From contig JADLFE010000033.1 of NCBI GenBank assembly GCA_020845755.1, positions 1 through 64,000 of the forward strand: DNA of 64,000 nucleotides, written 5' to 3'. This stretch comes from Phycisphaerales bacterium. Its GTDB lineage: Bacteria; Planctomycetota; Phycisphaerae; Phycisphaerales; UBA1924. The notes under the pieces were generated by a model, which worked only from the letters and a program-made list of their open reading frames with translations, made no database searches and was not told the origin of the DNA. Position 1 is the stretch's first letter; each line of letters opens with the position of its first letter. Below, in pieces: positions 41,258-58,178 of this stretch. The position numbers and the translations under genes were made by a program.

Positions 41258-42946
41258 TTACGCGGCCTGGGGCTTGTTGAGTGCCGCGGCGCTCTTCAGG
41301 CTCCGGTGGCGGACCCAGCAGACGGCGAGGAAGACCAACTCGATGGCAGCCCAGAGGCCGACCCAGACTTCGCCGCCCGAGCCGAAGCCGTAACTGTGGA
41401 GGCCGGTGGCCATGACGTAGTTCACGCCGTAGAAAGTCCAGACGATGACAACGAGCCCGAGCACGGCGGAGGCGGCCAGTCCGAAGTCTTCGATCCAGCG
41501 GACATAGCGGGCGTGGAGCACGGCGAAGTAGACCAGGATGCTGATGAGCGCCCAGGTTTCCTTCGGGTCCCAGCCCCAGAATCGTCCCCAGGATTCCGCG
41601 GCCCACACGCCACCCAGGATCGTTCCCGCGGTCAGGAGCACCAGTCCGACCTGGATCGTGCGATAGGCCTGCACGACCAGCGCTGCGGAGCGGGCGCGGC
41701 TGACTTCATCGCGCTTGTTGAGGATGACGTCCTTGATGAGATAGGCGTGCCCGAGAACGGCGGCGACGGCCAGCACGCCGTAACTGGCGACGATCGTGAG
41801 CACGTGGATGGTGAGCCAGAAGTTGGAGCGGAGGACAGCGGGGAGGGAGTTGGTACGGTCGGCGAGGGGGACCAGGCCCGCGAAGAGGACGGAGATCATG
41901 GCCGCCGCGATGCCGCCGAAGAGGTAGTACCCGCGGCGCTTGTTGACGATCTGGAAGATCAGGCCGACGCCGATGGCGACCAGGCCCATCCACAGGAGTG
42001 ATTCGAAGGTGTTGCTGACAGGGGCGCGGTTGAGGATGATGACGCGCAGCGCCACGCCAAGGATGTGCTCGCCGATGCCGATGACGGTGGCGGCCAGCCC
42101 GAGCGTGAGCATGATGTTCTTCATGACGAGGCGCGAGAACCCGAAGAGAACGAGCGCCAGCCCGTAGAACACCGCGGTCTTCACCCACGGATCGTGGTTG
42201 TCATAGAAGATCTCGAGGCGGACGTTCCGCGCGTCGTTCTCCGTGAGCGCTCCCATCGCGTTGATCGCGCTCTCCAACTTTTCCACCGCGGGAGTGACCG
42301 GCTGCCCGGAGGTATACAGCTGCGCGACCTCCTTGAACGCGGCCTGGACGGCCTCGGCGCCGGGGTCGGCGGTCTGCGCGCTGGCGTGACGGAAGGCCTG
42401 ACCGGGCTGCGACGGAATGATGGGGAGGGTCAGGCCGCTGGCAAACTCCGCCACTCGGTTGGCGGCGTTGCGGATGTCCATGGCCTTGCGCTGGTCCTTG
42501 GTCGCCGACGCGCCGGGGTCATCCTGGCGTGCTTTCTCGAAGTCCATCAGGAGTTGCGACAGCCCAGTGCACTGCGAGAGCTCGACCGGGCTGAAGAAGC
42601 GGCGCTCGGGGTCCAGGCCGACCAGTTTCTTGAACGGCTTGTCCTCGATGGTGACGACCTTGGACTTGATCATCTTGTCCCCGTCGAACATGCAGTCGAG
42701 GAGGAACTGCATCGACGAACGCTTGGTGAAGCCCTCGGGACCACCCGACGACCAGCGCGTGCGCCCCGTCACCTCGACGGCGAAGCGCCGCGCGTAGCCC
42801 TCCAGGGGCATGATGCGCCCGCCCTCTTGAACCGCCAGCGCTCCCAGGCGCGCGATGCCCGGGTCGGTATCAGCCGCGTTTGCTCTCGAGAGGCCCGGGA
42901 GCAGCGCCAGGCACCACATCGCGACGAACAACAGTCGACGGAACAT
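41258..42946 (-). CDS. ccsA: Cytochrome c synthase subunit CcsA (System II)
   Basis: The product is 562 residues. AAGGAGG precedes the ATG at 42946 by 8 nt, and the start overlaps the ResB stop by one base (TGATG). A signal-like helix and a periplasmic domain of about 250 residues come first; then at least seven membrane helices with the heme-handling WWD motif (WGRFWGWDPKETWALIS) and HARYVRW downstream. With ResB it exports heme and attaches it to CxxCH motifs outside the membrane. The long N-terminal domain is larger than in a minimal CcsA. It is in one operon with ResB, a kinase-like protein and a sigma-54 regulator. Confidence 0.93.
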   Translation of the reverse strand: MFRRLLFVAMWCLALLPGLSRANAADTDPGIARLGALAVQEGGRIMPLEGYARRFAVEVTGRTRWSSGGPEGFTKRSSMQFLLDCMFDGDKMIKSKVVTIEDKPFKKLVGLDPERRFFSPVELSQCTGLSQLLMDFEKARQDDPGASATKDQRKAMDIRNAANRVAEFASGLTLPIIPSQPGQAFRHASAQTADPGAEAVQAAFKEVAQLYTSGQPVTPAVEKLESAINAMGALTENDARNVRLEIFYDNHDPWVKTAVFYGLALVLFGFSRLVMKNIMLTLGLAATVIGIGEHILGVALRVIILNRAPVSNTFESLLWMGLVAIGVGLIFQIVNKRRGYYLFGGIAAAMISVLFAGLVPLADRTNSLPAVLRSNFWLTIHVLTIVASYGVLAVAAVLGHAYLIKDVILNKRDEVSRARSAALVVQAYRTIQVGLVLLTAGTILGGVWAAESWGRFWGWDPKETWALISILVYFAVLHARYVRWIEDFGLAASAVLGLVVIVWTFYGVNYVMATGLHSYGFGSGGEVWVGLWAAIELVFLAVCWVRHRSLKSAAALNKPQAA

Positions 42947-44664
42947 CACGCGACCTCCTTCTTGACGGGGTCCTGCGGGCGGATCGGGATGCCCGGATGG
43001 CCCCAACTCATGGACCTGCTATAGAACGTGATCACCACACCGATGCACAGGAACGTGGACGCGATGTACGTCAGCGTGAGGCCCGGATCGTGCATCACGC
43101 TGAAGATCGACACCGTCGTGCCGTTGAAACCGGACTGGTACACCTTCCACGGCCCGTGGGCGAAGGGGTGGTTCATGTAGATATCAAACTTGGTCTCGGG
43201 CTGCCCGGGGAAGATGATGCCGACGTCGGACTGATACTCCATCGCCATCTCGGTGCCGGGGTAGTCGATCTTGTGGAACTTGTCGAGGCGGACGGAGAAG
43301 GGCAGTTGGGCGCGCTTCGGGCCGTAGTAGATGGCCAACTGCTTCCCGCTCTCGCCGGTGACGGGGAGCATGTTCCTCCACGAGATGGTCTTGAGTTCAT
43401 TGGAGTTGCCGACGCGGACGAGGATCGCAGGAGAGTTGTCCTTGGCGACGGGCGCCTCGACCAGGCGCGTGTCGACATGGGCGTTGGACAACTGGCGGTG
43501 GATCGTGACCTCGCGGGTGTCGAATTGCAGCGTCACGGGGTACCGGTTCTCGATGTCGTAGGTGCGTCCCGCGCCGTCGAGCCCGATGTAGCCGATGCGG
43601 GTCTTCTCGACCGTCCCGAAGATGATGAGCGTCTCGCCGGCGTTCACGCCGCCCTTGATAAGTTTGGCGCCGGACTTGGCCTCGCCTTCGAGCGTCCGCC
43701 CCATGATCATGTCGGGGAACTGGGCGAACGCCGTGTGAATCTCGGTCGTGCCCTTCCCGTCGGAGATCTTCACCTGCACGGCGGGATTCTCCGGCGACGT
43801 CGCGGAACCCTCGACGATCGTGTCGCCCGACACCATCGCCCGCGCATACCGCGTCAATTCCACGATCTTCCAGCCCGGAAGCACTTCGTCGCCGACGTTG
43901 CCCAACGCGTGCGTGTGACCGGCGTCGGTGAACACAAAGTCGCCCTTGGCCGAGGTGTCGGGCTTGGGCGGCGTCCAGTCGCTCCCGTTCGGAAGCACCA
44001 GCACCTTCAGGCCCAGCAGCGTCGGCGAGGGGCCGGCCTGATCTTCCTGCCCCACCCACGCCGATTGCGGCCCGGCGACGGGCGAGATGTCCACGGCACG
44101 GAGAGGAACGGGGCTGTCGTTGGCGACGACCTCCTCTTCCTTGGAATTCTGCCAACGCTCCACCACCTCGAACGACACGCCGCCCAGCGTGAGCGATTTG
44201 CGACCCAGCGGCGCGGGGATGGCCCCAAGGCTGTTGAAGTCGCCGCGGTTGGGCTCCATCACCTCGATCTGATGCTCCTGCGTCTCGATGATGCTCCCCT
44301 GCGTGCCCTCGCGGAGCATCAGGTGCCCGTCGACCCGGGCCCACATCGACCAGAAGCCGCCCGCGATCAACGCGACCAGCGAGGCGTGGACCATGACAAA
44401 GCCGATGTGCCTCTTCTTGAGCGGGATGCGCGTGATGACGGCGAAGATCAGGCTGACACAGGTGAGCCCCATCAGCGCCACGAACCACCACGAGCCGTAG
44501 ACCCACTCGCGCGCCACGGTTGCGTTCTGCTTGGAGTCGAGCCACGTGCCGACACCCAGCGCGATGGAAACCAGGAAGAGCACCGGCACCGCCAGTTGGA
44601 TGCTCCCCAGGAACAGAATGACCCGCCCGAAGGGTGTGTAGTGCCAATCAAGAGACTTCTTCAT
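42946..44664 (-). CDS. resB: ResB-family cytochrome c biogenesis protein (System II)
   Basis: The product is 572 residues. GGAG lies 6 nt upstream of the ATG at 44664. It has an N-terminal membrane helix (IQLAVPVLFLVSIALGVGTWLDS), two more at about residues 57-110, a large periplasmic domain, and a C-terminal helix (LTLTYIASTFLCIGVVITFYS) that follows FNGTTVSIFSVMHDPG. This arrangement is that of ResB/CcsB, the partner of CcsA. It should help deliver reduced apocytochrome and heme. Its adjacency to the multiheme cytochromes explains why it is here. Confidence 0.9.
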   Translation of the reverse strand: MKKSLDWHYTPFGRVILFLGSIQLAVPVLFLVSIALGVGTWLDSKQNATVAREWVYGSWWFVALMGLTCVSLIFAVITRIPLKKRHIGFVMVHASLVALIAGGFWSMWARVDGHLMLREGTQGSIIETQEHQIEVMEPNRGDFNSLGAIPAPLGRKSLTLGGVSFEVVERWQNSKEEEVVANDSPVPLRAVDISPVAGPQSAWVGQEDQAGPSPTLLGLKVLVLPNGSDWTPPKPDTSAKGDFVFTDAGHTHALGNVGDEVLPGWKIVELTRYARAMVSGDTIVEGSATSPENPAVQVKISDGKGTTEIHTAFAQFPDMIMGRTLEGEAKSGAKLIKGGVNAGETLIIFGTVEKTRIGYIGLDGAGRTYDIENRYPVTLQFDTREVTIHRQLSNAHVDTRLVEAPVAKDNSPAILVRVGNSNELKTISWRNMLPVTGESGKQLAIYYGPKRAQLPFSVRLDKFHKIDYPGTEMAMEYQSDVGIIFPGQPETKFDIYMNHPFAHGPWKVYQSGFNGTTVSIFSVMHDPGLTLTYIASTFLCIGVVITFYSRSMSWGHPGIPIRPQDPVKKEVA

Positions 44665-44701: not shown

Positions 44702-45736
44702 TTAATTCATACCCGTCGTGTGGACGTCGGCCGGCGAATGAGAGGCGCGAACCTCCCCCGCGTCGACCGAACGCTCCAAGTCCACCATCTTCTGCCCGTC
44801 GAGATAGTCCGTCAGGACCACGCGCCGGATGTGCTTCAGCGACGCCACCGTCTTGCTCATCCTCGATAGAGTCGTTTGGATCTCTCGGCAATACCGCTCG
44901 AGGTTCGAATTGCCCCCCGATTGACGCCCCACCAGCGACAACTGCATCTCGATCGTCGCCATCGCGTTGTTCAGATCGTGATTCAGCGTCACCGCCAACT
45001 GACGCAGTGTCTCGGCCTTGCGCTCCTCGTTGGCCTGCAACTGCTCCGCTAGACGGTTGTACGCAGTCGCCAACTCCCCGAACTCGTCGCCCTGTTCGAC
45101 ATTGACGCGGTGATCGAATCGCTCGGCGGCCAGCTCGCGGCTTCCCTCCACCAACTGCCCGACCGGCTTGAGCACCACCATCGCCGTACGCAGCAGCACG
45201 AACACCGCGACGTTCACCATCACCAGCGCCGCCAGCGTCAGACCCAGCACCAGCCCGCGGAAGTACCGCCCGAACGACGCCTGCTCGCCGGCGACAAACC
45301 CGCGGACCGAGCGCGCCAACTCGCGCATCGCTTGATGCACGTGCGTGCGATGCTCCCGCTGGCTCGCCGCGTCCGAACTTGCGGGCTCCATGAACTCGGG
45401 AAGGAGTTCGACCAACTTCGCGTACGACCTCGCCTGGGGCGAGCCCGCGATCTTGATCGCGTCGTGGGCTCCAATGGCCGACATCGCGACACGCAGCCGC
45501 TCGTCGGGCGCCTGGGCATTGACGGGGCCCGAAGGGGGAAGCCCGTCGCGCGCGTTCTCGATCTCGGCAACACAGTCGTCGGCGGTGTGCACCCCGTCGA
45601 TCAGAACAACCGCGTCCCGATTGATCCGGTCGATATCGGGGATCGCCTGCTGGAGCAGGGAGACCGCCACCGCCGCGCCCATGACGAAGCAGGCGACCAG
45701 GAGACCGATCCGGATGAGTAGTTTCCGACGGAGCAT
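44702..45736 (-). CDS. Sensor-kinase-like membrane protein lacking the ATPase domain
   Basis: The product is 344 residues. It has a membrane helix at residues 8-28, a periplasmic sensor of about 130 residues, a second helix at 161-185, a HAMP linker (186-238) and a dimerisation/phosphotransfer-like helix with His253 in LAVTLNHDLNNAMATI. Normal histidine kinases then have about 150 residues with N, G1, F and G2 ATP boxes; here only about 75 residues remain and no such boxes exist. So it cannot phosphorylate itself by the usual route. It lies 18 nt after the response regulator gene and is likely its partner. Confidence 0.82.
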   Translation of the reverse strand: MLRRKLLIRIGLLVACFVMGAAVAVSLLQQAIPDIDRINRDAVVLIDGVHTADDCVAEIENARDGLPPSGPVNAQAPDERLRVAMSAIGAHDAIKIAGSPQARSYAKLVELLPEFMEPASSDAASQREHRTHVHQAMRELARSVRGFVAGEQASFGRYFRGLVLGLTLAALVMVNVAVFVLLRTAMVVLKPVGQLVEGSRELAAERFDHRVNVEQGDEFGELATAYNRLAEQLQANEERKAETLRQLAVTLNHDLNNAMATIEMQLSLVGRQSGGNSNLERYCREIQTTLSRMSKTVASLKHIRRVVLTDYLDGQKMVDLERSVDAGEVRASHSPADVHTTGMN

Positions 45737-45754: not shown

Positions 45755-47134
45755 CTACGGCGTGTTGTCGCCGCGCTCCTGGTCCTGCAGGTCCTTGGGG
45801 ATCCGCAGTTCCTCCAACTTGCGGTACAGGCTCGACACGCCGATGCCCAGGTGCTGGGCGGTCTCGGCCTTGTCGTAGTTGTGCCGGCGCAGGCTGTAGA
45901 TGATGTGCTGACGCTCGAACTGCATGAGCGCCTGCTTCAGATCCTCGCCCGTGTCCTCGTCGATCGCGACCGACTGGAACGGCAGGTCCGACGCCTCGAC
46001 ATCACGACCTTCCGAGAAGATCACGGCACGCTCGATCACGTTCTCCAGTTCACGCACGTTGCCACGCCACTCGTGATTCAGCAACGCCCGCATCGCGCCG
46101 TTGCTGATCCCCGTCACGTTCTTGTTCATCTTCCGCGTGTACTTGTCGAGGAAGTGCTGGGCCAGGAGCGGGATGTCCTGGCGGCGCTGGCGCAGCGGGG
46201 GGAGCAGCAATCGCACCACGTCGAGGCGGTAGAGCAGGTCCTCGCGGAACTTGCCCTCCTTGCACAGCGTCTGCAGGTTCTGGTTCGACGCCGCGATGAT
46301 GCGCACCTCGACCGGGCGCGGACGCGTGTCGCCCACGGGAACAACCACACGCTCCTCGAGCACACGGAGAAGCGAACTCTGCACCTGGACGGGGAGCGTC
46401 GAGATCTCGTCGAGGAACAGCGTGCCGCCGTTGGCCGCCTCGAAATAGCCGATGCGGTCCTTGACCGCGCCGGTGAATGAGCCCTTGCGGTGCCCGAACA
46501 GTTCGGATTCGATGAGATTCTCGGGGATCGCGCCGCAGTTGACCGCGATGAAGGGCTTGTCGCGCGTGATCCCGTTGTAGTGGATCGCGCGGGCGAACAG
46601 TTCCTTGCCCGTGCCCGACTCGCCCACGATCAGGACGCTGCTGGAAACCGTCGAGAGTTTCTTCACCAGCGCAAACAGACCGGCCATCGCCGGCGACTCG
46701 CCCACCAGGTCGTGGAAGGTCGATTGCGACGCGAGCTGCTCGGTCAGGATGCTCCGGTTCCGACGCATCTCGCCAACCTCGAGCGCCCGCTTCACACGGA
46801 TCAGCACGTCCTCGAACTGCACCGGCTTGAGTAGATAGTCGGCCGCCCCCATCCGCATCGCGCTCACCGCCGACTCCACCGTCCCGAACGCCGTGATCAC
46901 GATCACCGGCGTCTGCGGGATCACCTGCTGAAGATTCTTCAGGAGCGTCAGCCCGTCCATCACCGGCATGCGGATGTCCGTGAGCACAAGATCAAAGGGC
47001 TCGGCGAGCACGGCGTCGTAGCCAGCCTTGCCGTCCCCCGCCTGCACGACCTGATACCCCTCCTCGCCCAGGAGTTGGGCCAGGGACTCACGGAGCAGTT
47101 GCTCGTCTTCGACCAGGAGAATCTTGGTGGCCAT
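45755..47134 (-). CDS. Sigma-54-dependent response regulator (NtrC family)
   Basis: The product is 459 residues. The receiver domain has the phosphoacceptor Asp53 (LTDIRMP) and Lys103 region (LLKP). The AAA+ domain has Walker A GESGTGKE at 171-178, the sigma-54 contact loop GSFTGA at 218-223 (the common form is GAFTGA) and Walker B GGTLFLDE at 236-243. A Fis-type helix-turn-helix fills about residues 405-450 (ETAQHLGIGVSSLYRKLEEL). It should activate -24/-12 promoters, four of which lie in this locus. GGAG precedes the start by 6 nt. It is in one operon with the upstream NTF2-like gene. Confidence 0.95.
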   Translation of the reverse strand: MATKILLVEDEQLLRESLAQLLGEEGYQVVQAGDGKAGYDAVLAEPFDLVLTDIRMPVMDGLTLLKNLQQVIPQTPVIVITAFGTVESAVSAMRMGAADYLLKPVQFEDVLIRVKRALEVGEMRRNRSILTEQLASQSTFHDLVGESPAMAGLFALVKKLSTVSSSVLIVGESGTGKELFARAIHYNGITRDKPFIAVNCGAIPENLIESELFGHRKGSFTGAVKDRIGYFEAANGGTLFLDEISTLPVQVQSSLLRVLEERVVVPVGDTRPRPVEVRIIAASNQNLQTLCKEGKFREDLLYRLDVVRLLLPPLRQRRQDIPLLAQHFLDKYTRKMNKNVTGISNGAMRALLNHEWRGNVRELENVIERAVIFSEGRDVEASDLPFQSVAIDEDTGEDLKQALMQFERQHIIYSLRRHNYDKAETAQHLGIGVSSLYRKLEELRIPKDLQDQERGDNTP

Positions 47135-47155: not shown

Positions 47156-47899
47156 TCACTCCTTCTTGGGCTCGGTCGCGGGCGCGGCCGGCGTTTCGGT
47201 GGGCGCGGCTTCCGGCTTGCCTTCCGTCTGGACGGCGGGCTGGGCGGCGGGCTGGGCGGCGCCGGCGGGCAGGTACTTCGCCGGGATGTCGTTGCCGGGC
47301 GTCTCGAAATCCCAGAAGACGTTGACAATCCACCAGCGGTCCTTGTCCTTCAGCAACTGGATGCTGTTGATGCCGCGGATGTACGGGTCCTTCTCCTCGG
47401 CGCTGTGACGCGACTCGTAGGTGCTCCACACCTGGGCCATGTGCCCGAACGAATCCACCTGGCGATGCACCTCGGAATCAAGGAAGCCGCCCTTCTCGAA
47501 GTACTTCTTGTTCATGTCGACGTACTGCGCGATCGGCACATACATCGCCATCGCACCGCCGCGATCATCGGAGCGGGCGGGAACCATGCGCGCATCGGGC
47601 GTAAAGAGCGACATGTACCGCTCCCAGTCGCGCGCCTCGCCCGGATTACCGGCCGGGATCTTGTAAAACGCCGCCAGGATCGCGTCGATCGACTTCACGT
47701 CCTCCGCTCGCGCCTTGGGCCATTTCACCTGCTCATTGCTCATCCCCGGATGCCCCGACGGCATCGGCTTCTTCGACGGCTGGTCCGTCGAGGGGTGCGC
47801 TGGCTTGTCGTTCGGCGGCTGGACTGGCTTGGAATCCTGCGGGAGCGGCATCGGGCCAGAGAGCAAACAGGCCACGATCGCGGTTACAAGTGCGTTCAT
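47156..47899 (-). CDS. Secreted NTF2/SnoaL-like protein
   Basis: The product is 247 residues. GGAGG lies 8 nt before the ATG at 47899 and a short signal peptide follows (LVTAIVACLLSGPMPLPQ). Residues 60-190 look like the NTF2/SnoaL cone (IDAILAAFYKIPAG, RDWERYMSLFTPDARMVP, WSTYESRHSAEEKDPYIRGINSIQLLKDKDRWWIVNVFWDFE). Pro/Ala-rich stretches flank the domain. It is the first gene of the regulator operon, directly behind a sigma-54 promoter. The function is unknown; it may bind a small molecule in the periplasm. Confidence 0.78.
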   Translation of the reverse strand: MNALVTAIVACLLSGPMPLPQDSKPVQPPNDKPAHPSTDQPSKKPMPSGHPGMSNEQVKWPKARAEDVKSIDAILAAFYKIPAGNPGEARDWERYMSLFTPDARMVPARSDDRGGAMAMYVPIAQYVDMNKKYFEKGGFLDSEVHRQVDSFGHMAQVWSTYESRHSAEEKDPYIRGINSIQLLKDKDRWWIVNVFWDFETPGNDIPAKYLPAGAAQPAAQPAVQTEGKPEAAPTETPAAPATEPKKE

Positions 47900-48084: not shown

Positions 48085-49758
48085 TTACGGCCCTTCAGGG
48101 TACTTTTTCGGCGAGTGGTCCACGCCGTGGCACGACAGGAAGCACTCGCCGGTGTGCCCGCCCGTGTCACGGTATTCGAGCTTGCCGGTCACCCGGTCGG
48201 GAAGAACGATCGCGGTCGCGAAATTGACGAGGTGGGCGTTGTTGGCGGCACGCCCTTGGCCGGCGGCGATGCCGTGCGAATCATGGCACGCAATGCAGGG
48301 CGTCTGGTGGTCGACGATGTGCTTCTTGTGCCCGGGGAAGGAACGATCGTCGAGGATGCTCCCGCGGTCGTGGCAGGTATAGCACAACGCATAGCCCGCG
48401 GCACTCTCGCTGGTGTAATCGTTGGTCTCGTAGGCGGCCCGGAGCAGACCGGGGTTGTTCGAGCCGTGGACGCCGACGGGCAAACCAGCATCCGACCCGT
48501 GGCAATCGCTGCAACTCATGATGCTCGAGGTAGACCAGCCGGGCCGCAGGCTCGGCACGTCGGTCCCGCGCCCGGAGATACCCACCGGGTGCATCGACAC
48601 CGACGAGGGGCTGAACTGCAGGCGGACGTTGGTATTGGAGACCTGGCGCGCGATCCGCGGCGTGACGACGTTCCCGTCGCCGTGACACTTGTAGCAGACT
48701 TCCTGCTCGGCGCTGATGACGCCGATGGGCGAGCCCGAGGCGTTGACGCCGGAGATTCGACCGAGACGCCCAAGGTCGACGTTGCGCGGGCCCGGACCCT
48801 GGTTGTGCGCACCAGTGCCGCGCCGCATGGTGTGCGGATCGTGGCAACTGGTGCAGTTCGTGGTCGACTCATACGCGCCGTCCGGATCGACCGGGCTCAT
48901 CGTGTCGTGGGCGCTGACCTTGGTCAGGTCGGAGGCGATGTCGGCGGCGTCGTGCGTGGAGCCGTTGTGGCAACTGGTGCAGGTCTTGGTGGTGTTCTGG
49001 TTGTTGAGGAGGTAGGGCCCGCTGGGCGCGGTGTGGTTCTGGTGGCAGTCAATGCACTGCGCGTGACCCTGGATGTCGGTCTGGCTGATGGTGTGGCACG
49101 ACGTGCACAACTCGGAGTTGGTGTTGCGCATCACCAGGAACTTGCCGAAGGCGTTGTTGTGCGCGTCGTGGCAGGTGGTGCACTGCAGTTCGCGGTTCAA
49201 ATCGAGTTTGATCTGCGGCGGAAGGGCGAATGGATCGCGCAGTCGCCCGTCCTTGCCGGCCAGTGACGAGTCGTACGTGAACGAGATCGGATGATCGTCG
49301 CGCAGGTCGGTGCCGAGATTGGCGCGCCCATGCGGCATGGTGGTCACCCCGCCGCGCATCGGGATCGGCGCCCCGATCCCCGCCACGGAGCCCCCGCGAC
49401 GCAGCACGCTCCCCAGCGCGATCGTCCCGTCGTGACAGGACAGACAGAGTTTGGAATCGCCCGTGGGCTGCCCGGGGTTGGCGTCGAGCGAGCGGCTGGC
49501 ATACACCAGATACGCCTGGGGCGACATGGCGCGATTCCACAGGGGCGCGATGGGCGAGGCGCTGTGAGTGGTGTGGCAGAAGATGCACACCTGGTCCTCG
49601 CCGGAGGCGCGGACGTTGGCGGCACTCCCCGCGGAGAGATCGTGCGGGCTGCTGACCATCGACACGATCTGGGCCCGCGCGCCCGCCGCGCACAACGCCG
49701 CACAGATCATCGCCACCCACGCCGAACGACCAATGGCGTTCATGGGATTCACGTTCAT
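48085..49758 (-). CDS. Secreted 12-heme c-type cytochrome
   Basis: The product is 557 residues with a signal peptide (MICAALCAAGARAQ). I count eleven CxxCH motifs and one CxxxCH (CFLSCH, near the C-terminus), so 12 hemes. The first four (CIFCH, CLSCH, CTTCH, CTSCH) with SPHDLS, CHDGTIALGS and LGTDLRDDHPISFTYD form the same module as the tetraheme protein at 55521-56141. Eight more hemes follow. The start overlaps the stop of the upstream NHL gene (ATGA). It is the last gene of the operon starting at 54996. Cell-surface or periplasmic electron transfer is expected. Confidence 0.92.
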   Translation of the reverse strand: MNVNPMNAIGRSAWVAMICAALCAAGARAQIVSMVSSPHDLSAGSAANVRASGEDQVCIFCHTTHSASPIAPLWNRAMSPQAYLVYASRSLDANPGQPTGDSKLCLSCHDGTIALGSVLRRGGSVAGIGAPIPMRGGVTTMPHGRANLGTDLRDDHPISFTYDSSLAGKDGRLRDPFALPPQIKLDLNRELQCTTCHDAHNNAFGKFLVMRNTNSELCTSCHTISQTDIQGHAQCIDCHQNHTAPSGPYLLNNQNTTKTCTSCHNGSTHDAADIASDLTKVSAHDTMSPVDPDGAYESTTNCTSCHDPHTMRRGTGAHNQGPGPRNVDLGRLGRISGVNASGSPIGVISAEQEVCYKCHGDGNVVTPRIARQVSNTNVRLQFSPSSVSMHPVGISGRGTDVPSLRPGWSTSSIMSCSDCHGSDAGLPVGVHGSNNPGLLRAAYETNDYTSESAAGYALCYTCHDRGSILDDRSFPGHKKHIVDHQTPCIACHDSHGIAAGQGRAANNAHLVNFATAIVLPDRVTGKLEYRDTGGHTGECFLSCHGVDHSPKKYPEGP

Positions 49759-50873
49759 GGCTTTCTACCCTCACTCCCGCCACGGTCCGCGCCGACAGAC
49801 ACACCGTCGCCCAGATACTGAAAGACCTGGACGCGCTGGTTATATGAATCGGCAATCCAGACTCGCCCCTTTGGATCGATGTGAATCCCGGCGGGAAGCC
49901 AGAATTCACCAGGCCCTCGTCCCTCACGCCCGACCGATAGCAGCAACTGCCCCTCGGAAGTGAAGATCTCGACGGCCTCGAAATTGGCGTCCACCACGTA
50001 GACGTGCCCGTCTGGATCGAGTGCAACGCCCTTGGGCTGGGAGAAATAACCCGGCAGGTCGCCTCGACGCCCGATCTGGCGGATCGGTTTCAGGTCGGGC
50101 CCGAAGACCTGCAAGCGAAAGTTCAGGGTGTCGCTGACGTATAGATCACCCTCGCCGTCGATCGCGAGGTTGGTCGGATAGTTGAACGTGCCCAACTCCG
50201 TCCCACGCTCGCCCAGACGCGTGATCTCCGCCCCGGCGCGATCCAGCACGACGATCTGGTGCACGCCGACATCGGCGACGAAGATCCGCCCGTCGGCGCC
50301 GACCGCCAGCCCCGCCGGACGCTTCAGAACGCCCTCGCCGATCTTGGCGGTCATCGTGCCGCCCGCATCAAACGCGAAGATGCAGCCCGCCACCGAGTCC
50401 GAAACCAACACGCGCGACCCCGCGGCGTCCCACGCAACCGCAACCGGCATCGAGAACTTCTCCGCCGGGTCCCAGTGCGCGTAGCGCCGCGTGTCGAGAT
50501 CGAAGACGTGCAGCGTCTGCCCGTTGTTGTCGGCGACAAAGACCCTGGAGCCCCCGTCGGTGCACACGCCCATCGGGCTGGTCATGCCCTTGGCCGCCTC
50601 TTCGCCGAAGAGCCCGGCGCCGATCGACTCCAGGAAGCCGCGCGCCGGCTTCAGGTCCTTATCGGTGGCGATCTCGCCGAGATACCGCAGCCGCGGCGGA
50701 TCGGGCGGCGTGGGCCACACCGGCGACGCGTCGGTCCCCTCGAGGATCGTGCCCGCGGGCGTGGTGCACCCGCCCAGCACAACCGCCGGGACACCGATCA
50801 GCAGCGCCATCGCCCGCGCCCCGGCGGAGAGCGAGCGTCGTGGCATGAACCGGGGTGGGCGTGGCTGGTCCAT
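49755..50873 (-). CDS. NHL-repeat propeller lipoprotein (second copy in operon)
   Basis: The product is 372 residues. AGGAG lies 6 nt before the ATG at 50873. The lipobox is LGGC in VPAVVLGGCTTP. Six NHL blades are visible (for example DGGSRVFVADNNGQTLHVFDL, DGEGDLYVSDTLNFRLQVF, DPKGRVWIADSYNQRVQVF). Just after the Cys is SPVWPTPPDPPRLRYLGEI, which matches WPLAPAEPRIQYIGSY in the NHL protein at 53686-54996. Such paired lipoproteins accompany multiheme cytochromes in metal-reducing bacteria. It may hold or orient a cytochrome on the outer membrane. Confidence 0.9.
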   Translation of the reverse strand: MDQPRPPRFMPRRSLSAGARAMALLIGVPAVVLGGCTTPAGTILEGTDASPVWPTPPDPPRLRYLGEIATDKDLKPARGFLESIGAGLFGEEAAKGMTSPMGVCTDGGSRVFVADNNGQTLHVFDLDTRRYAHWDPAEKFSMPVAVAWDAAGSRVLVSDSVAGCIFAFDAGGTMTAKIGEGVLKRPAGLAVGADGRIFVADVGVHQIVVLDRAGAEITRLGERGTELGTFNYPTNLAIDGEGDLYVSDTLNFRLQVFGPDLKPIRQIGRRGDLPGYFSQPKGVALDPDGHVYVVDANFEAVEIFTSEGQLLLSVGREGRGPGEFWLPAGIHIDPKGRVWIADSYNQRVQVFQYLGDGVSVGADRGGSEGRKP

Positions 50874-50880
50874 GGTGCTC

Positions 50881-52902
50881 CTAGAACGCGCGGCGCAGGC
50901 CGACCTCGATGAACTGGGACTCGTTCTTGGTGGCGGGCCCGTCGAGATTGGAGTTGCTCACCGTGGCATAGATGGAAGTCTGACGCTTCCGGAACGTGAG
51001 GGTCAAGTGCTCTTCCAGCCCGTCGGTCGTCCCGCTCTGGCTGCTGTCCTCATGACGGTACGTCGCGCCCAAGGTGAGGCTGAGCGCCTGATCCAGGCGG
51101 GTCGTCCATTCGAGCCTGGCGCGGTCGAGCGCCACATCGTCGTTCTGCTGCGTGAACTCGATCATCTCATGCGACAACTCCGCCGTCACCGCCGAACCCG
51201 TGCCCGTCTGGAGCGAGTAGTTCAGCAGGAACCTCGCCACGTTGTAGGGCGAGATGGAACTGTCGTGCATGTTGTACTCGGCCCGGGCGAGCCATTCGGC
51301 GCGCCGGTACTCGACGCCGACGAGCAGGTCCTTGGTGTCGTCGGGCGTGAAGAGCGAGGGATCGCTGGCGCTGATGCTCTGGTCCGTGGTGCGGTAGGTG
51401 GTGTACCCCGACAGGCCCCTGAACGTGCCCTCGGTGAGCGTGTAGCGCAGGGCCCAGTTCGTGCTGAGCGTGTCGACGTCGTAGCCGGACTCGGGCCCGA
51501 CGTCGTAGGTCACGCGGACCTGCTGCCCGTTGATCAGCGCGCCGGTCAGGACGCCGCGGATCTCGGTGTGATCCGGGTAGTACAGCACCGTGTAGTCGAT
51601 GCCCTCCTGGTAGGGCGTGGAGTTGGAGGGGGGGCGCACCTCGACCGAGCCGGGCACGATGTTGCGCCGGTTCAGGATGATGGGGAACCCATCGTTGTAG
51701 ACGTGGGATTCGTCGAGAACACGGAACGTCGATCCGCGATCGCTGTTGGTCTGCGCGTCATAGCCCAGGCCGACCGACGCGTCGAGCGTCCCCAGCGGGA
51801 CCCGCTTGGTGTAGTCCAGTTCGCCGCTGAGGAACAGGTCGTCGCTGGTGAAGCCCTCGTCGTCGGTGATGCGCTGGGCCCCGAGGGTGCCGAGGCTGGT
51901 CAGGCTGTCGAAGAGTTTGTGCTTGGCCGAGTTCTGGAAGCGGACAAGGTCGCGCGAACTCCCGCGGATGTCGGCCTGGTCATACACCAGGTCGTGCCTG
52001 GTCTCGAAGTTGTCGGTGTGCCGCAGCGTCAGGAACTCGTCCCAGCGCATGCGGTTGATGTCCTGGCTCCCCGACTGCTGGTAGACACGGGCCTGCGAGC
52101 GCAGTTCGTGCGGGCGACCCTCCTCGCCGAACACCCAGGTGTGCGTCAGCATCGCGTCGTGACGCGTGTACGAGTCCGAGTACCCCCCGCCCTGACTCTC
52201 GTCGATCATGTCGAGCGTGTAGTTCAGTTCGAGTTTCTGCCGCTCCGCCACGCTGAAGATGTCGTTGGTGGTGAAGGTGTCCTGTCTGGTGTTGGTGTTG
52301 ATGTCACCGAAGTCGTCGGTGATCTCCTGCTCCCGGTGGAAATACTCGGCGCTGAGCGCCATGAAGTCGTCGTGATAACTGCTGGAGATCCCGGTCTCGG
52401 TCGTGATCTGGTCGATCGTGCCCGCGAACGGGCGACGCTGGCGGTCCTCGCTCCGACGCGAATAGATGCTGGTCGGCAGTTCGCTGGCCCCGAAGACCAG
52501 CGCGTTGATGTCCCACAACCCCACGAATTCGTTCGTGTTCCCGCTGTCGCCGTCGATGCTGCTCCGACGATCGATGTCCTCGTTGCCGATCTGGAAGATG
52601 CCGACCACGTCGATCAGGTTCTTGTGCCCGATCGTCACCTCGGTGTCGAGGTCCAGCAACTCGCGATACCGATCCTCCGTCACCGTCTGGTCAGACTGGC
52701 CCGTCACCTGCGACTTGTCCCGCTGGTGCTGCCAACGCAGGTCGAGCGACGGCACAAACCTCACCAACTCGACCCCAGACCACGTCGCCTTCCGCTCTCC
52801 CACGATCACCGGCCCGCCGTCGTCCGCCTGCTGCGCCGCCGCCCGCCCCGCCAGGGCGAGCAACGCCGCGATCAAGATGGATGTGGGGGCTCGCCGCGGC
52901 AT
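50881..52902 (-). CDS. Outer-membrane beta-barrel candidate of the cytochrome operon
   Basis: The product is 673 residues. A signal peptide (LIAALLALAGRAAAQ) is followed by a chain of alternating amphipathic strands with aromatic girdles and ends in Arg-Arg-Ala-Phe, the C-terminal Phe expected for Bam-inserted barrels. No other domain is seen. Its place between two multiheme cytochromes and two NHL lipoproteins is that of the barrel in a porin-cytochrome complex (MtrB or OmbB type), though I see no direct sequence signature of those families. The stop lies 7 nt before the next start. Confidence 0.75.
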   Translation of the reverse strand: MPRRAPTSILIAALLALAGRAAAQQADDGGPVIVGERKATWSGVELVRFVPSLDLRWQHQRDKSQVTGQSDQTVTEDRYRELLDLDTEVTIGHKNLIDVVGIFQIGNEDIDRRSSIDGDSGNTNEFVGLWDINALVFGASELPTSIYSRRSEDRQRRPFAGTIDQITTETGISSSYHDDFMALSAEYFHREQEITDDFGDINTNTRQDTFTTNDIFSVAERQKLELNYTLDMIDESQGGGYSDSYTRHDAMLTHTWVFGEEGRPHELRSQARVYQQSGSQDINRMRWDEFLTLRHTDNFETRHDLVYDQADIRGSSRDLVRFQNSAKHKLFDSLTSLGTLGAQRITDDEGFTSDDLFLSGELDYTKRVPLGTLDASVGLGYDAQTNSDRGSTFRVLDESHVYNDGFPIILNRRNIVPGSVEVRPPSNSTPYQEGIDYTVLYYPDHTEIRGVLTGALINGQQVRVTYDVGPESGYDVDTLSTNWALRYTLTEGTFRGLSGYTTYRTTDQSISASDPSLFTPDDTKDLLVGVEYRRAEWLARAEYNMHDSSISPYNVARFLLNYSLQTGTGSAVTAELSHEMIEFTQQNDDVALDRARLEWTTRLDQALSLTLGATYRHEDSSQSGTTDGLEEHLTLTFRKRQTSIYATVSNSNLDGPATKNESQFIEVGLRRAF

Positions 52903-52905
52903 GGG

Positions 52906-53667
52906 TTACGAGGGGTTAGGTGTCTCCGCAGGGATGACCTCGTCGTCCTCGGGACCCACGGGCGGACCGACACGCTCCTCCGCCGGCGGTACGCTCGGGC
53001 TCCGACCGCTCTCGGGGTTGAAGATCGGCTGCTGCTTCTCGACCTCCTTCAACTCGCTCTCGGGCGGCGGTGATTGCGCCGACGCGCCAGGACGAAGCAT
53101 GATCGCCGAATCACCGCCGTGCCCGAAGTGGCACGACAGGCAACTCGACTTCTCGTCCGCGTGCGCCGGCACCGTCTCCCCCGTCAGCATCGCCGACGAG
53201 TGGCACTGCATGCACAACTTCCGGTCAGGACCACGCAGAAGCCAACGACGCACCGATTCATGCGGCGTGTGACACCACAGGCACGCCCCTCCTGCCACCG
53301 CTCCGTGCGTCCAGGCGTGCTGTCCCATCAACTTGTCATGACAATTCAAGCACGCACGCGGATCATTCCGACTCGGTCGATACTGCGTCTTGTGACACTC
53401 CTCGCACTTCTCATCCGCGAACGGCTTGTGAACCACGACCCGCGCCGCAATCGTCATGTCCGAGATGTCCGTGCCCGCAACCTTCGCGCTCGGATCAGGC
53501 ACCCCGTCAAAGAACAAACTCAGCGTCGCGTAGTTCTCTTTCGTGACCGTGCACCCGCACCACACCCCACCCACCACACCCCCGGCCAACGCCGCGCCCA
53601 GCGCCCAGCGCGCGGCGGCCCCACCGAAGCGGGGTCGCCGAAACACTTGGCGTCGGGTGCGTCTCAT
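52906..53667 (-). CDS. Membrane- or lipid-anchored pentaheme c-type cytochrome
   Basis: The product is 253 residues. The N-terminal signal (AAARWALGAALAGGVVGGVWCGC) could be a lipobox ending at Cys or a membrane anchor. Five CxxCH sites follow: CEECH, CLNCH, CLWCH, CMQCH, CLSCH. After the last heme comes a Pro/Glu-rich tail of about 75 residues without Cys. Its small size and heme packing fit the periplasmic cytochrome that sits inside a porin in known conduits. It is four nt from the barrel gene, which it precedes. Confidence 0.88.
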   Translation of the reverse strand: MRRTRRQVFRRPRFGGAAARWALGAALAGGVVGGVWCGCTVTKENYATLSLFFDGVPDPSAKVAGTDISDMTIAARVVVHKPFADEKCEECHKTQYRPSRNDPRACLNCHDKLMGQHAWTHGAVAGGACLWCHTPHESVRRWLLRGPDRKLCMQCHSSAMLTGETVPAHADEKSSCLSCHFGHGGDSAIMLRPGASAQSPPPESELKEVEKQQPIFNPESGRSPSVPPAEERVGPPVGPEDDEVIPAETPNPS

Positions 53668-53685: not shown

Positions 53686-54996
53686 TTATGGCTTGGGATT
53701 GGCGGGCGGCGTCTGCGGCTGGGGCTCCGCGGGCTGAGCGCTATCGCCCAAGGGCTCGTCCTGCACCGCGCCCTCGGGCGTCGGCTCGACGCCGCCGATG
53801 TTCTGGAACTTGAGCGTCTCGGCGCTGGGCGTGTCCTGCACCCCCACCGAGACCTTCTCCGAAACCGCCGCGACCTGCTCGATCGTGTACCCGGAACGCA
53901 GACCGCCCATCGCGTACACCGACACCCTCCCGTCGCCGAACTGGTTGGCCACCAGCACCAGCCGCTTGGCCTCAAAGCCCGGGTAGATCTTGTCCTTGAA
54001 ATAGTCCAGTCCCTGGTCGGTCACCGCGATCCCGACCGGGAGGCTCATCGCGCCGGGGTGCTTCCCAGGTGACCCGAAGAACATGAGCAGTTTGAACTCG
54101 TCGTTGAACATCTGCACGTTCTGGAACTGGGCGTCAACGACATAGATGATGCCGTCGGAGTCCACCGCCACATGCTTGGGCCGCGCGAACGAACCCGCAT
54201 GGTCGCCAAGACGCCCGAAGCCCGACAGATACTTCCCGTCCTTGTCGAACTTCTGCACCATGCAACGCATCATGTCCGTGACATAGACGTTCCCGCTCTT
54301 GTCCACTGTCACGCCGATCGGAAGGCGGAACTGCCCGGGCTCATCCCCCACGCTCCCGATCACCCCCAACTCCTTGCCCGACTTGCGGTCCAGGATCAGG
54401 ATCTGCTGGCGGGTGATGTCCGCGATGTACAGCCGCTCGCCGAACGTCGCCATCGACGCCGGCTTGAACTTCTCGATCTTGATGGCGCGGCTGAATCGCT
54501 CGCTCTTGTCGAAGATCATGATCGCGCCGTACACACCGTCCGCGACATAGATCTCCCCGTCGTCCCCGATCGTGATCGCGACCGGCCGCTCCAGTTTGTT
54601 CACGCCCGTCGTGCCCATCAGCCGCGTCTGCTTCCTGGCCAGATCCATCACCACGACCGACTTGCCCCGGATGTCGCAGATGTAGATCTTCCCGTCGTGC
54701 ATTATCAGGCCGTACGGCTTGTTCACATACGCGACCTGCTCCGCGTCCCTGCCGAAGACCGCCTTCTCAAGGCCCGACGCCTCCGTCTTCGACACGTCCT
54801 CGCTCGAGTTGTACGAGCCGATGTACTGAATCCGGGGCTCCGCCGGCGCCAACGGCCAGAACGCGTACTTGCCAGCCGTCCCCACGTCCTTCTTGGTCTC
54901 GGTTGGCGTCGAACCGCACCCCGAAACACCGATCAGGGCCACCAACCCCAGCAGCCCGGCCGCCAGCGCCCCCCGAATCGCAAACTTGGTACTCAT
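53686..54996 (-). CDS. NHL-repeat propeller lipoprotein (first gene of operon)
   Basis: The product is 436 residues from the ATG at 54996, with GGGAGG 5 nt upstream. The lipobox is VSGC (LVALIGVSGCGS). NHL blades include DIRGKSVVVMDLARKQ, DDGEIYVADGVYGAIMIFD, DKSGNVYVTDMMRCMVQKFD and DSDGIIYVVDAQFQNVQMF. A Pro/Gln/Glu-rich tail of 60 residues ends the chain. It shares a WPxxPxxPRxxY segment after the lipid Cys with the NHL protein at 49755-50873. It is the first gene behind promoter P2. Confidence 0.9.
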   Translation of the reverse strand: MSTKFAIRGALAAGLLGLVALIGVSGCGSTPTETKKDVGTAGKYAFWPLAPAEPRIQYIGSYNSSEDVSKTEASGLEKAVFGRDAEQVAYVNKPYGLIMHDGKIYICDIRGKSVVVMDLARKQTRLMGTTGVNKLERPVAITIGDDGEIYVADGVYGAIMIFDKSERFSRAIKIEKFKPASMATFGERLYIADITRQQILILDRKSGKELGVIGSVGDEPGQFRLPIGVTVDKSGNVYVTDMMRCMVQKFDKDGKYLSGFGRLGDHAGSFARPKHVAVDSDGIIYVVDAQFQNVQMFNDEFKLLMFFGSPGKHPGAMSLPVGIAVTDQGLDYFKDKIYPGFEAKRLVLVANQFGDGRVSVYAMGGLRSGYTIEQVAAVSEKVSVGVQDTPSAETLKFQNIGGVEPTPEGAVQDEPLGDSAQPAEPQPQTPPANPKP

Positions 54997-55029: not shown

Positions 55030-55045
55030 GCAAACCTGGTGCCAG
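55030..55045 (-). promoter_or_regulatory. Sigma-54 promoter P2 (NHL/pentaheme/barrel/NHL/12-heme operon)
   Basis: On the minus strand the sequence reads CTGGCACcaggtTTGC followed by A; GG and GC are 10 nt apart and the consensus bases match. The predicted transcript start is near 55018, 22 nt before the start codon. Confidence 0.85.
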
Positions 55046-55400
55046 GGTTGAGCCTCTCTGGCCAAGGTACAGGTTGTAGCCCTTCAGGTCGTCATTGTCA
55101 CCGCCGCCCTCGGGAATGTGCACGGCTCCATCAGGCCTACACGCCCCGCCCGCCTTCTCTCCGATGCCCGATGCCTTCTATCAGGAGCCCGACCGTGAGG
55201 GATGGCGTTCCTGGCAGTGCCTGGATGCATGCGCGGATTTCCAGCCTCGAAGCCGACCCCTTTCGGGGTCGTTGACCCTACGCCGTCGCCTTCCGGGGTT
55301 CGCTCGCGCCTGGCTCCACCCCTGGCCGCGAACGAACAGCCCTCCGGGCTGAAAGACGTGCGTCCCGGCGAGCCATCGTGGTATTTCCCTGTTTTCCCTG

Positions 55401-55448
55401 TCTCGCTGTCTCGCTGTTTCGCTGTCTCGCTGTCTCGCTGTCTCGCTG
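55401..55448. repeat. 8-bp tandem repeat (TCTCGCTG) x 6
   Basis: Six head-to-tail units, one with a C-to-T change. Similar text in the other orientation (CAGCGAGGCAGCGAGACAGG) lies at about 34522-34541 after lpxD. Confidence 0.9.
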
Positions 55449-55449
55449 C

Positions 55450-55485
55450 AAAAAAGAACTCCGAGCGCCTTGCGACGCTCGGAGT
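55450..55485 (-). terminator. Rho-independent terminator of the tetraheme gene
   Basis: A 10-bp stem (ACTCCGAGCG with its complement, 8-nt loop) followed on the minus strand by a T-run, 36 nt after the tetraheme stop. It separates this gene from the NHL operon. Confidence 0.88.
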
Positions 55486-55520: not shown

Positions 55521-56141
55521 TTACTTGATGTGGCAAGTCAAGCAGATGTGGCTGGCCTGGTTGCTGAACCGCATCATGTGGCCGTAGTTGCCGGCGTTGT
55601 GGGCGGTGTGGCAGGTGCTGCAGCCGACGACATACTTCTCAACGCTGTCGGTCGGGTCGATCCACGCACGCAGACGCAGGGAGCCCCACGGGCCCGGGAC
55701 CTGGTGGGCGGCGTTCTGGGGGTTGAAGCGGGTGCTGGTCGTGGTCGGATAGATCGCGTCGGCGCCGATCGGGTGATCGTCGCGCAGGTCGGTGCCGATC
55801 TTGGCCCAAGCCGCGATCGTGTTGGAACCGGTCGTCCCGCCGAAGCTGTCGAGGGCGACGGTGCCGTCGTGGCAACCCATGCACATCAGGGAGCGCTCAT
55901 CGAGCAGTTCGGGGCCGCCCACTTCACCCTCGAACATGGTGAAGGTCGCGCTGGAGAGCTCGTGGTTCCACATGAAGCCCGCGTCCACATTGCCGAAGTG
56001 CGGCGTATGGCAGGGCTTGCAGATCTCGCCACCGCTCCAGGCGTAGCTGCTGAAATCGTGCTTGCTGCCCGTGATCTGGGCCTGAGCGGCCGTGGCCAAG
56101 CACACCATCGCGAGAGTCCCGACAAACAGTTGACGTTTCAT
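55521..56141 (-). CDS. Tetraheme c-type cytochrome, OmcE-like
   Basis: The product is 206 residues. GGAGG lies 5 nt before the ATG at 56141. A signal peptide ends near residue 22 (TAAQAQ). Hemes are at CKPCH 41-45, CMGCH 87-91, CSTCH 174-178 and CLTCH 200-204. Text around them (GSKHDFSSY, CHTPHFGN, WNHE, CHDGTVALDSF, IGTDLRDDHPIG, HICLTCHIK at the end) is the pattern I know from OmcE-type cytochromes, which polymerise into extracellular filaments in Geobacter. Length and heme count also fit. It is alone between its own sigma-54 promoter and terminator, which suits a highly expressed subunit. Filament formation is inference. Confidence 0.92.
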   Translation of the reverse strand: MKRQLFVGTLAMVCLATAAQAQITGSKHDFSSYAWSGGEICKPCHTPHFGNVDAGFMWNHELSSATFTMFEGEVGGPELLDERSLMCMGCHDGTVALDSFGGTTGSNTIAAWAKIGTDLRDDHPIGADAIYPTTTSTRFNPQNAAHQVPGPWGSLRLRAWIDPTDSVEKYVVGCSTCHTAHNAGNYGHMMRFSNQASHICLTCHIK

Positions 56142-56228: not shown

Positions 56229-56245
56229 GGCAATTTGCGTGCCAG
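56229..56245 (-). promoter_or_regulatory. Sigma-54 promoter P1 (tetraheme cytochrome), nearly palindromic
   Basis: On the minus strand the sequence reads CTGGCACGcaaaTTGC, a full match to the -24/-12 consensus. The predicted start is near 56218, 77 nt before the tetraheme start codon. The same bases on the plus strand read TGGCAatttgcGTGC, a weaker -24/-12 match facing the hexaheme gene. Confidence 0.87.
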
Positions 56246-56438: not shown

Positions 56439-57242
56439 ATGCGAACGAATCGCGTACAGCGGCGGGCGGTCCCTTGGTCGTTTCTTTGGGGGCTGGCCGG
56501 GATTGTGGGAGTGATCGTGGCCGGGTCGATCGGACCCGGGCCCACGCGGGCCAAGGCCGACGGCGAGGCCTGGACTGTCGCCGCGGCGCCGTCCGGGAAT
56601 CAGACGCCCGGGGTGACCTCCCGCAGTTGCGTTTCGTGCCATCACTTTGAACAGGTTCTGACCCACCCAACCAACGTGCGGGCGTCGATGCCGGTGCCCG
56701 CAAGCCTTCCGTTGAACGCCGGGATGGTGACGTGCCTCACATGCCACGACGCCGGGCCGAACCACGCCACCGGCCACCAGAAGGTTGGTGTTCGGAGTGA
56801 TTCCTCCGGCACGAGCCTCTGCATGCAGTGTCACTCGAATGTCAAGAACTCGACCAAGGCGGTTCACGCCCTCCGTGGTGGAAAGGCCCACCTCAGCGCC
56901 AGGTCCCAGTATGACGCCCACGCCAGCAAGGTCGCCGACGGCGAAAGCGTCAGTTGCATGGGTTGCCACGACGGCACCTCGGCCAGCGATGCCGGATCCC
57001 ATTCCATCAAGAGGTCACAGGACGACATGCTCCCGGACCATCCGATCGGAATTCCCATGCGTGAGACCGGCCGCAAACGCGATGGCGACTTCCGTCTGAA
57101 TCGGACCATCGACAAGCGAATCCGCCTTTACGACGGAAATCTCGGGTGCGGCTCGTGCCACAGCATCTACTCTCGTGAACCCAAAGAACTCGTCATGAAC
57201 AATCGCGGGAGCAAACTCTGCCTCGGATGTCACGCTCAATAG
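56439..57242 (+). CDS. Secreted hexaheme c-type cytochrome
   Basis: The product is 267 residues from the ATG at 56439, with GGGAG about 10 nt upstream. A signal/anchor helix (GLAGIVGVIVAGSI) is followed by CVSCH, CLTCH, CMQCH, CMGCH, CGSCH and CLGCH. The last three hemes with CHDGTSASD, DHPIGIPM and SKLCLGCHAQ at the very end match hemes two to four of the tetraheme module, including the spacing around DHP. It is divergent from the tetraheme gene and shares a 297-nt control region with it. Confidence 0.9.
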   Translation: MRTNRVQRRAVPWSFLWGLAGIVGVIVAGSIGPGPTRAKADGEAWTVAAAPSGNQTPGVTSRSCVSCHHFEQVLTHPTNVRASMPVPASLPLNAGMVTCLTCHDAGPNHATGHQKVGVRSDSSGTSLCMQCHSNVKNSTKAVHALRGGKAHLSARSQYDAHASKVADGESVSCMGCHDGTSASDAGSHSIKRSQDDMLPDHPIGIPMRETGRKRDGDFRLNRTIDKRIRLYDGNLGCGSCHSIYSREPKELVMNNRGSKLCLGCHAQ

Positions 57243-57389: not shown

Positions 57390-57404
57390 TGGCACCAACA
57401 TTGC
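57390..57404 (+). promoter_or_regulatory. Sigma-54 promoter P4 (ccmC/ccmD-like genes)
   Basis: TGGCACcaacaTTGC, followed by A; GG and GC 10 nt apart with all consensus bases matched. The predicted start is near 57416, 70 nt before the ccmC start codon. Confidence 0.85.
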
Positions 57405-57485
57405 AGTGAATGGGACGTTGCGGGACCCGTGTTCCGCGGCTGCGTTCCCTTCCTTACGCGAATTCCTGCCTCCTCAAGGTGCTGC

Positions 57486-58178
57486 ATGGACCGCCAGCGC
57501 AGATGGATCGCGGGTTCCTATTGGACGTTGACGATCGTCCTTCTCGCGATCGGGGCGTTTTTGGTGGTCCGGGCTCCCATTGATGAGACAATGGGTCCCA
57601 TACAGAAACTGATCTACCTCCACCTGCCGGTGGCGGTCAACACATTCTTGTCATCGCTCGTGGTGTGCATCGCCAGCGTGGGCTATCTGGCGGTTCGTCG
57701 CCAGAGGTGGGATGACCTGGCCCAGGCGGCGGCTGCGGTCACGGTGCTCAACGGCACGGTCCTGCTGCTCACTGGTATGTGCTGGGGCAAGGTCGCGTGG
57801 AACCTGTGGTGGACCTGGAGCCCGCGCCTCACCTTCAGTTTGATCCTCTGGGTGTTGTACCTGGCCTACCTGGCGGTGCGCCGGCGAATCGAGTCGCCCG
57901 AACGCCGCGCCCAGGTCAGCGCTGTCTACGGCGTCGTCGCGTTTCTCGACGTGCCCCTTCTGTATCTGGCCGTGAAACTCCTGCCCGACGTCCACCCGAC
58001 CCAGTCCGGGCTCATCCCCGCGATGTACCCGGCTCTTTGGACGTGGTTTGTGGCGATCACCATGTTGACGGGCGGCCTGATCGCCGCTCGGTTCTCCCTC
58101 GCTCGTCTCCCAACCTTCCGGTGGGAGAAGGAGCCGAGCACTCCGACACTCCCTCCCGCCGCCGGCCTGACCGGATGA
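57486..58178 (+). CDS. ccmC: CcmC-like heme-handling membrane protein
   Basis: The product is 230 residues with six membrane helices. AAGGTG precedes the ATG at 57486. Two His that match the CcmC heme ligands are seen: YLHLPVAVN (about residue 45) and LLPDVHPTQSG (about residue 165). The tryptophan-rich loop reads WNLWWTWSPRLTFSLILW, where the usual CcmC has WxWDxRLT, so the Asp is Ser-Pro. No other Ccm System I genes (A, B, E, F, H) are nearby. Together with System II at 41-45 kb it may serve a special cytochrome of this locus. A CcsA-like role is the alternative. Confidence 0.88.
   Translation: MDRQRRWIAGSYWTLTIVLLAIGAFLVVRAPIDETMGPIQKLIYLHLPVAVNTFLSSLVVCIASVGYLAVRRQRWDDLAQAAAAVTVLNGTVLLLTGMCWGKVAWNLWWTWSPRLTFSLILWVLYLAYLAVRRRIESPERRAQVSAVYGVVAFLDVPLLYLAVKLLPDVHPTQSGLIPAMYPALWTWFVAITMLTGGLIAARFSLARLPTFRWEKEPSTPTLPPAAGLTG

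Follow-up and report, generated by a model that had tools for sequence, protein, structure and literature searches.

The gene at positions 55521-56141 (minus strand, stop codon included) encodes a tetraheme cytochrome of 206 amino acids that is predicted to be secreted. It is best called a UetA-type cytochrome of the OmcE family, and is thus of a kind already known. The best supported view is that it has the OmcE domain and serves a Uet conduit as its extracellular tetraheme. Its relationship to OmcE and its place in a widely conserved set of genes for electron transfer across the cell envelope make it a good candidate for the subunit of an electron-conducting filament. The protein is probably the UetA of a Uet-type electron conduit, which would be exported and form a head-to-tail polymer in the manner of OmcE.

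The tetraheme cytochrome and its gene cluster

The window, the whole stretch of 64,000 nucleotides analysed here, belongs to a planctomycete genome of 4.24 Mb that is 94% complete. Translation of the open reading frame confirmed the four CxxCH heme sites (CKPCH, CMGCH, CSTCH and CLTCH) and all landmarks named in the first-pass annotation, which had not given the strand. GSKHDFSS is located at residues 25-32, directly behind a Sec-type signal peptide (...AQAQ), and is followed by CHTPH (44-48), CHDGT (90-94), LRDDHP (119-124) and CLTCHIK (200-206). As judged by eye, the signal has an AxA-Q site and is devoid of a lipobox. Orthologs in relatives are 87, 74 and 64% identical.

The tetraheme gene is the first of a cluster in the order tetraheme, NHL lipoprotein, pentaheme, presumed barrel, NHL lipoprotein and undecaheme. 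The genes identified in and around this cluster are the following:

42946-44664, minus: ResB-like cytochrome c maturation protein
44702-45736, minus: HAMP membrane protein with a histidine-kinase-like H-box (LNHDLNN), adjoining the NtrC-type regulator; no ATPase domain match
45755-47134, minus: NtrC-family response regulator (REC, sigma-54 activation domain, Fis-type HTH)
47156-47899, minus: protein of 247 aa without a Pfam match, the N-terminus resembling a signal peptide
48085-49758, minus: UetJ-type undecaheme (557 aa; 11 CxxCH and one CxxxCH)
49093-49713, minus: N-terminal part of the undecaheme, an OmcE-like tetraheme module
49755-50873, minus: 372-aa NHL beta-propeller protein, the second of the cluster, whose signal resembles that of lipoproteins
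50881-52902, minus: 673-aa secreted-type protein with a C-terminal Phe, presumed outer-membrane barrel (UetC position), fold inferred only
52906-53667, minus: pentaheme cytochrome (253 aa), presumed periplasmic
53686-54996, minus: UetH/I-like NHL beta-propeller protein of 436 aa, whose signal likewise resembles that of lipoproteins
55521-56141, minus: UetA-type, OmcE-family tetraheme cytochrome (206 aa), predicted to be secreted
56439-57242, plus: divergent hexaheme cytochrome (267 aa)
57429-58178, plus: CcmC/CcsA-like cytochrome c assembly protein

The genes from the first NHL protein to the undecaheme are tightly packed, with gaps of 3-18 nt or overlaps. For the 673-aa protein, which has neither a Pfam nor a PDB match, 23 amphipathic strands were counted compared to 17.5 +/- 3.3 in shuffled sequences, a weak basis for a barrel.

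In 12 relatives from the same taxonomic order, the tetraheme gene is followed on one strand by the genes for an NHL protein, the pentaheme, the 673-aa presumed barrel, an NHL protein and the undecaheme of the 557-aa type, and in others the gene order is identical up to the end of the contig. The hexaheme gene upstream of the tetraheme is conserved in many Phycisphaerae. The ordered cluster was identified in 39 loci (37 distinct ones after two duplicates were dropped) from at least seven phyla, namely Planctomycetota, Bacteroidota, Chlorobiota, Pseudomonadota, Thermodesulfobacteriota, Kiritimatiellota and Nitrospirota; some of these clusters, for example that of locus L096, are without the pentaheme. 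An NHL gene is present at most 1.5 kb downstream of the tetraheme in 78 of 104 loci. The loci of both counts were chosen by similarity to the tetraheme of the window or to OmcE and are not a random sample. Among 61 genomes, comprising the host and 60 relatives, the undecaheme is encoded in all 15 with the tetraheme and in 3 of the 46 without it (Fisher p 1e-11, not corrected for kinship).

Some loci deviate from this arrangement. Four genomes of one genus (G043, G047, G039 and G059; loci L012, L015, L021 and L065) have three or four matches to the OmcE module each, with tetraheme paralogs also located outside the conduit cluster. In L045 and L046, which come from other families, NHL, multiheme, barrel and undecaheme genes are present without a clear stand-alone tetraheme. 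Planctomycete-type tetrahemes were also identified in records designated Leptolyngbya sp. PLA1 (L049, with the whole cluster) and Vicinamibacteraceae PLA1 (L079), the titles of which are probably wrong.

Relationship to OmcE and the heme ligands

The first-pass annotation described the protein as OmcE-like, and OmcE proved to be a genuine full-length homolog. By phmmer, the only full-length relatives of the tetraheme in the PDB were 9YUQ (2e-13) and the OmcE filament 7TFS (3e-11), the latter matching residues 9-206. A profile search of the PDB gave 4.5e-57 for 9YUQ and 1.5e-58 for 7TFS, but both were already contained in the profile alignment, so that the single-sequence phmmer search is the independent evidence for homology. 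Of the archaeal tetraheme filament proteins, with which a comparison had been proposed, 8E5F and 8E5G were not matched by the profile at E<=1, and for OmcS no usable similarity to the profile was found. Pfam and NCBIfam yielded local matches to doubled CxxCH sites only, and PHROGs gave no match. Full-length similarity to NapC/NrfH, c3 or STC-type proteins was not found in the PDB, Pfam and NCBIfam; best hits only to soluble NapC/NrfH- or c3-type proteins, which had been named as speaking against a filament subunit, are thus not what the searches returned.

In an alignment of 17 sequences with OmcE, eight His are invariant, four of the proximal and four of the distal type, and all eight heme-ligand His of OmcE are present in the tetraheme, with H28, H48, H123 and H181 as the conserved non-proximal ones. 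Among 100 related tetrahemes, H28 is kept in 98, H48 in 94, and H123 and H181 in all 100; this set was picked by similarity alone, while earlier ligand counts partly followed from the pattern used for collecting. The nearly invariant ligands in these 100 proteins, together with the identity of the orthologs, place the tetraheme far from chance. The family is very widespread, with at least 545 relatives identified in the species-genome collection, and the named relatives of highest identity among the matches listed are mostly from MAGs of Phycisphaerae and Planctomycetota.

Six related tetrahemes (L071, L080, L091, L099, L104 and L118), from Calditrichota, Ignavibacteriota, Deferribacterota and Bacteroidota, lack the second distal-type His at the position of H48, and two of them also lack H28. 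They are possibly end or cap variants.

The N-terminal module of UetJ

The OmcE domain was identified a second time in the cluster. Residues 18-222 of the undecaheme match OmcE at 3e-29, a stronger match than that of the tetraheme itself, and the eight ligand positions of the domain are retained in the UetJ modules. The landmarks pointed out in the first-pass annotation thus hold as marks of the OmcE domain, but not as marks of filament formation, since a module that is part of a larger protein carries the same ligand set.

In an unrooted tree, the UetJ modules form one clade (support 99/91). OmcE and 9YUQ group with these modules (98/94), and the tetrahemes of the Uet clusters are located across that branch, so that the tetraheme does not fall into one orthologous group with OmcE.

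In 58 UetJ homologs, the proximal His of all 12 heme sites are invariant, as are 13 other His, and one more is conserved at 95%. Compared to UetA, with four conserved non-proximal His for four hemes, UetJ thus has one spare invariant His. This is what a mount donating a ligand to a filament would need, although it is a count only and a conserved His can serve otherwise. We tentatively consider, as a rather doubtful reading of the sequences, that UetJ might be the mount of an OmcE-type filament, with its N-terminal module as a first subunit built in covalently. The downstream face of this module would be fused to the hemes of the conduit, and its N-terminal His would complete a heme in the first UetA subunit. 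If true, the wiring of a cytochrome filament to a conduit in the outer membrane would be accounted for.

Transcription and regulation

The regulatory sites identified are the following:

55030-55044, minus: exact sigma-54 site, the second of three, 48 nt upstream of the ATG of the NHL gene
55458-55485, minus: intrinsic terminator of the tetraheme gene, with a 12-bp stem and the tail TTCTTTTTTGC
56230-56244, minus: TGGCACGCAAATTGC, the sigma-54 promoter core (-24/-12) of the tetraheme gene, about 100 nt upstream of its ATG
57390-57404, plus: exact sigma-54 site, the third of three, upstream of the CcmC/CcsA-like gene

The perfect sigma-54 promoter and the strong terminator reported earlier for the tetraheme gene were both found again. 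The promoter has the sequence TGGCAC-N5-TTGC at 56244-56230, which is the exact -24/-12 core, and is conserved in relatives; the terminator at 55485-55458 has a T-run tail and is located 35 nt past the stop codon. The downstream NHL gene has its own sigma-54 site, which is conserved at this distance from the gene in L028 and L042. With its own promoter, a terminator and a separate sigma-54 site for the next gene, it is well supported at the sequence level that the tetraheme gene would be transcribed as a single-gene unit, as had been proposed. While this part of the first-pass annotation stood, the membership of the gene in a Uet-type porin-cytochrome cluster had been missed. The terminator is also present in the genus and in some relatives of the family but is missing in others, so that not every cluster of this kind would have the tetraheme gene as a separate transcription unit.

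The exact TGGCAC-N5-TTGC motif occurs three times in the window, compared to 0.12 copies expected, and all three sites are within 2.4 kb, upstream of the tetraheme gene, the NHL operon and the CcmC/CcsA-like gene. In the whole genome of 4.24 Mb, 13 exact cores were counted, with 4 for the reversed pattern as a control. Sites agreeing in at least 10 of 11 positions were identified upstream of 26 of 82 tetrahemes, compared to 0.6% of random stretches. The host genome encodes rpoN, and an NtrC-family regulator is encoded downstream of UetJ, a candidate activator for the sigma-54 promoters of the cluster.

A hairpin in the leader between the promoter and the ATG was rejected, with a z value of -0.06 compared to shuffled sequences and no conservation beyond the genus. 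Rfam gave no match. In the spacer between the tetraheme and NHL genes, an 8-bp tandem repeat, CTGTCTCG, is present in 6.4 copies (55398-55448), located within about 340 bp by which the spacer exceeds that of L042; similar short stretches recur at about 20 further sites of the genome.

Another multiheme cytochrome cluster is encoded in the same genome (G000) on contig C7 at 92904-100243. An exact sigma-54 core precedes its first PF09699 match by about 1 kb, which suggests that the two clusters share a regulon.

Proposed function

For OmcE, ligation between subunits has been described (PMC9473688), and by analogy we infer that UetA may polymerise by intersubunit His ligation in the same way. Many copies of UetA would be exported and joined head to tail, with one His of each subunit completing a heme of its neighbour. 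The stacked hemes would link UetJ at the cell surface to a donor or acceptor of electrons outside the cell, and from UetJ the path would lead through the barrel and the pentaheme into the periplasm. A two-component NtrC-type regulator would likely turn on the cluster together with RpoN. Electron uptake to oxygen is possible, since heme-copper oxidases are encoded in the host genome and electron uptake has been proposed for the published Uet hosts (PMC10734462).

This explanation is supported by the matches to OmcE and 9YUQ, the eight ligand His, the order of the six genes, the co-occurrence with UetJ, the NHL and multiheme neighbours of OmcE-like relatives, the sigma-54 sites, the NtrC-type activator and rpoN. 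Counted against a UetA filament are the presence of the ligand set in UetJ, where the module belongs to a longer chain, the position of OmcE and 9YUQ beyond a supported branch, the weak assignment of the barrel and the missing UetB and UetDEG.

It is also possible, though less likely, that UetA is extracellular but does not polymerise, with one or a few copies docking on UetJ and contacting a mineral, an electrode or a partner. Such a role would agree with the Uet description used here, in which UetA is termed an extracellular tetraheme cytochrome and is not termed a filament (PMC10734462), and with the solved OmcE-type structures belonging to a different branch of the family. UetJ, in addition, retains the N-terminal His and the other ligands without being a simple repeat subunit. 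However, the gene's own promoter and terminator suggest that UetA is needed in excess over the conduit, a similar neighbourhood of NHL and multiheme genes surrounds the relatives of OmcE, and 9YUQ, known here from its sequence record alone, has 16 chains of one sequence, which suggests that it is a second member of the family forming polymers. That the tetraheme is a soluble periplasmic shuttle from the inner membrane to the conduit is very unlikely: a Sec signal without a lipobox would be compatible with it and a secretion route is not visible in the cluster, but no full-length c3, NrfH, NapC or STC-type similarity was found, the full-length match is an extracellular filament protein, and the pentaheme of the cluster already suits a periplasmic role.

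For the filament reading, the interest of the cluster lies in the joint encoding, in conserved order and in at least seven phyla, of a subunit from the OmcE family with a cytochrome of the conduit in which the module of this subunit recurs. The hand-over of electrons from extracellular cytochrome filaments to the cell has been called poorly understood (PMC10553843), and UetA and UetJ would provide a direct genetic system for testing the connection between filament and conduit. Candidate cytochrome filaments are thereby extended to planctomycetes of the Phycisphaerae.

Comparison with known systems

The Uet (undecaheme electron transfer) pathway was described for Ca. Tenderia electrophaga and Gallionella, with the tetraheme UetA, the barrel UetC, the NHL proteins UetHI and the undecaheme UetJ, and in addition the PPIase UetB and three trihemes, UetDEG (PMC10734462). 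By gene content, the cluster of the window is the Uet pathway, matched to that of Tenderia by description and not by sequences. Both contain a tetraheme, two NHL proteins, an undecaheme and a large secreted protein at the position of UetC. The window has one pentaheme where three trihemes are present in Uet, and PPIase and triheme genes are absent among the cluster genes examined. The planctomycete host and the flanking genes for the NtrC regulator, ResB and the CcmC/CcsA-like protein are further differences to the published clusters.

OmcE (7TFS) and the tetraheme share full-length homology, four hemes, the eight ligand His, an N-terminal His-Asp motif and a C-terminus two residues past the last heme site. 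They differ in that their identity is about 31%, a supported branch lies between them, and polymerisation, known for OmcE, is a prediction for the tetraheme. The 9YUQ protein, a 'putative multiheme cytochrome c', is likewise a full-length homolog of the tetraheme and groups with OmcE.

In loci encoding proteins 51-60% identical to OmcE, the neighbouring genes code for 8- to 10-heme cytochromes, an NHL protein and a CcsA-like protein; in the three loci closest to OmcE, the 8- to 10-heme cytochromes are found where the cluster of the window has UetJ. The link between OmcE and NHL proteins thus reaches Geobacter-like genomes. A Geoalkalibacter locus has also been described which encodes an OmcE homolog together with two NHL proteins (PMC12016550).
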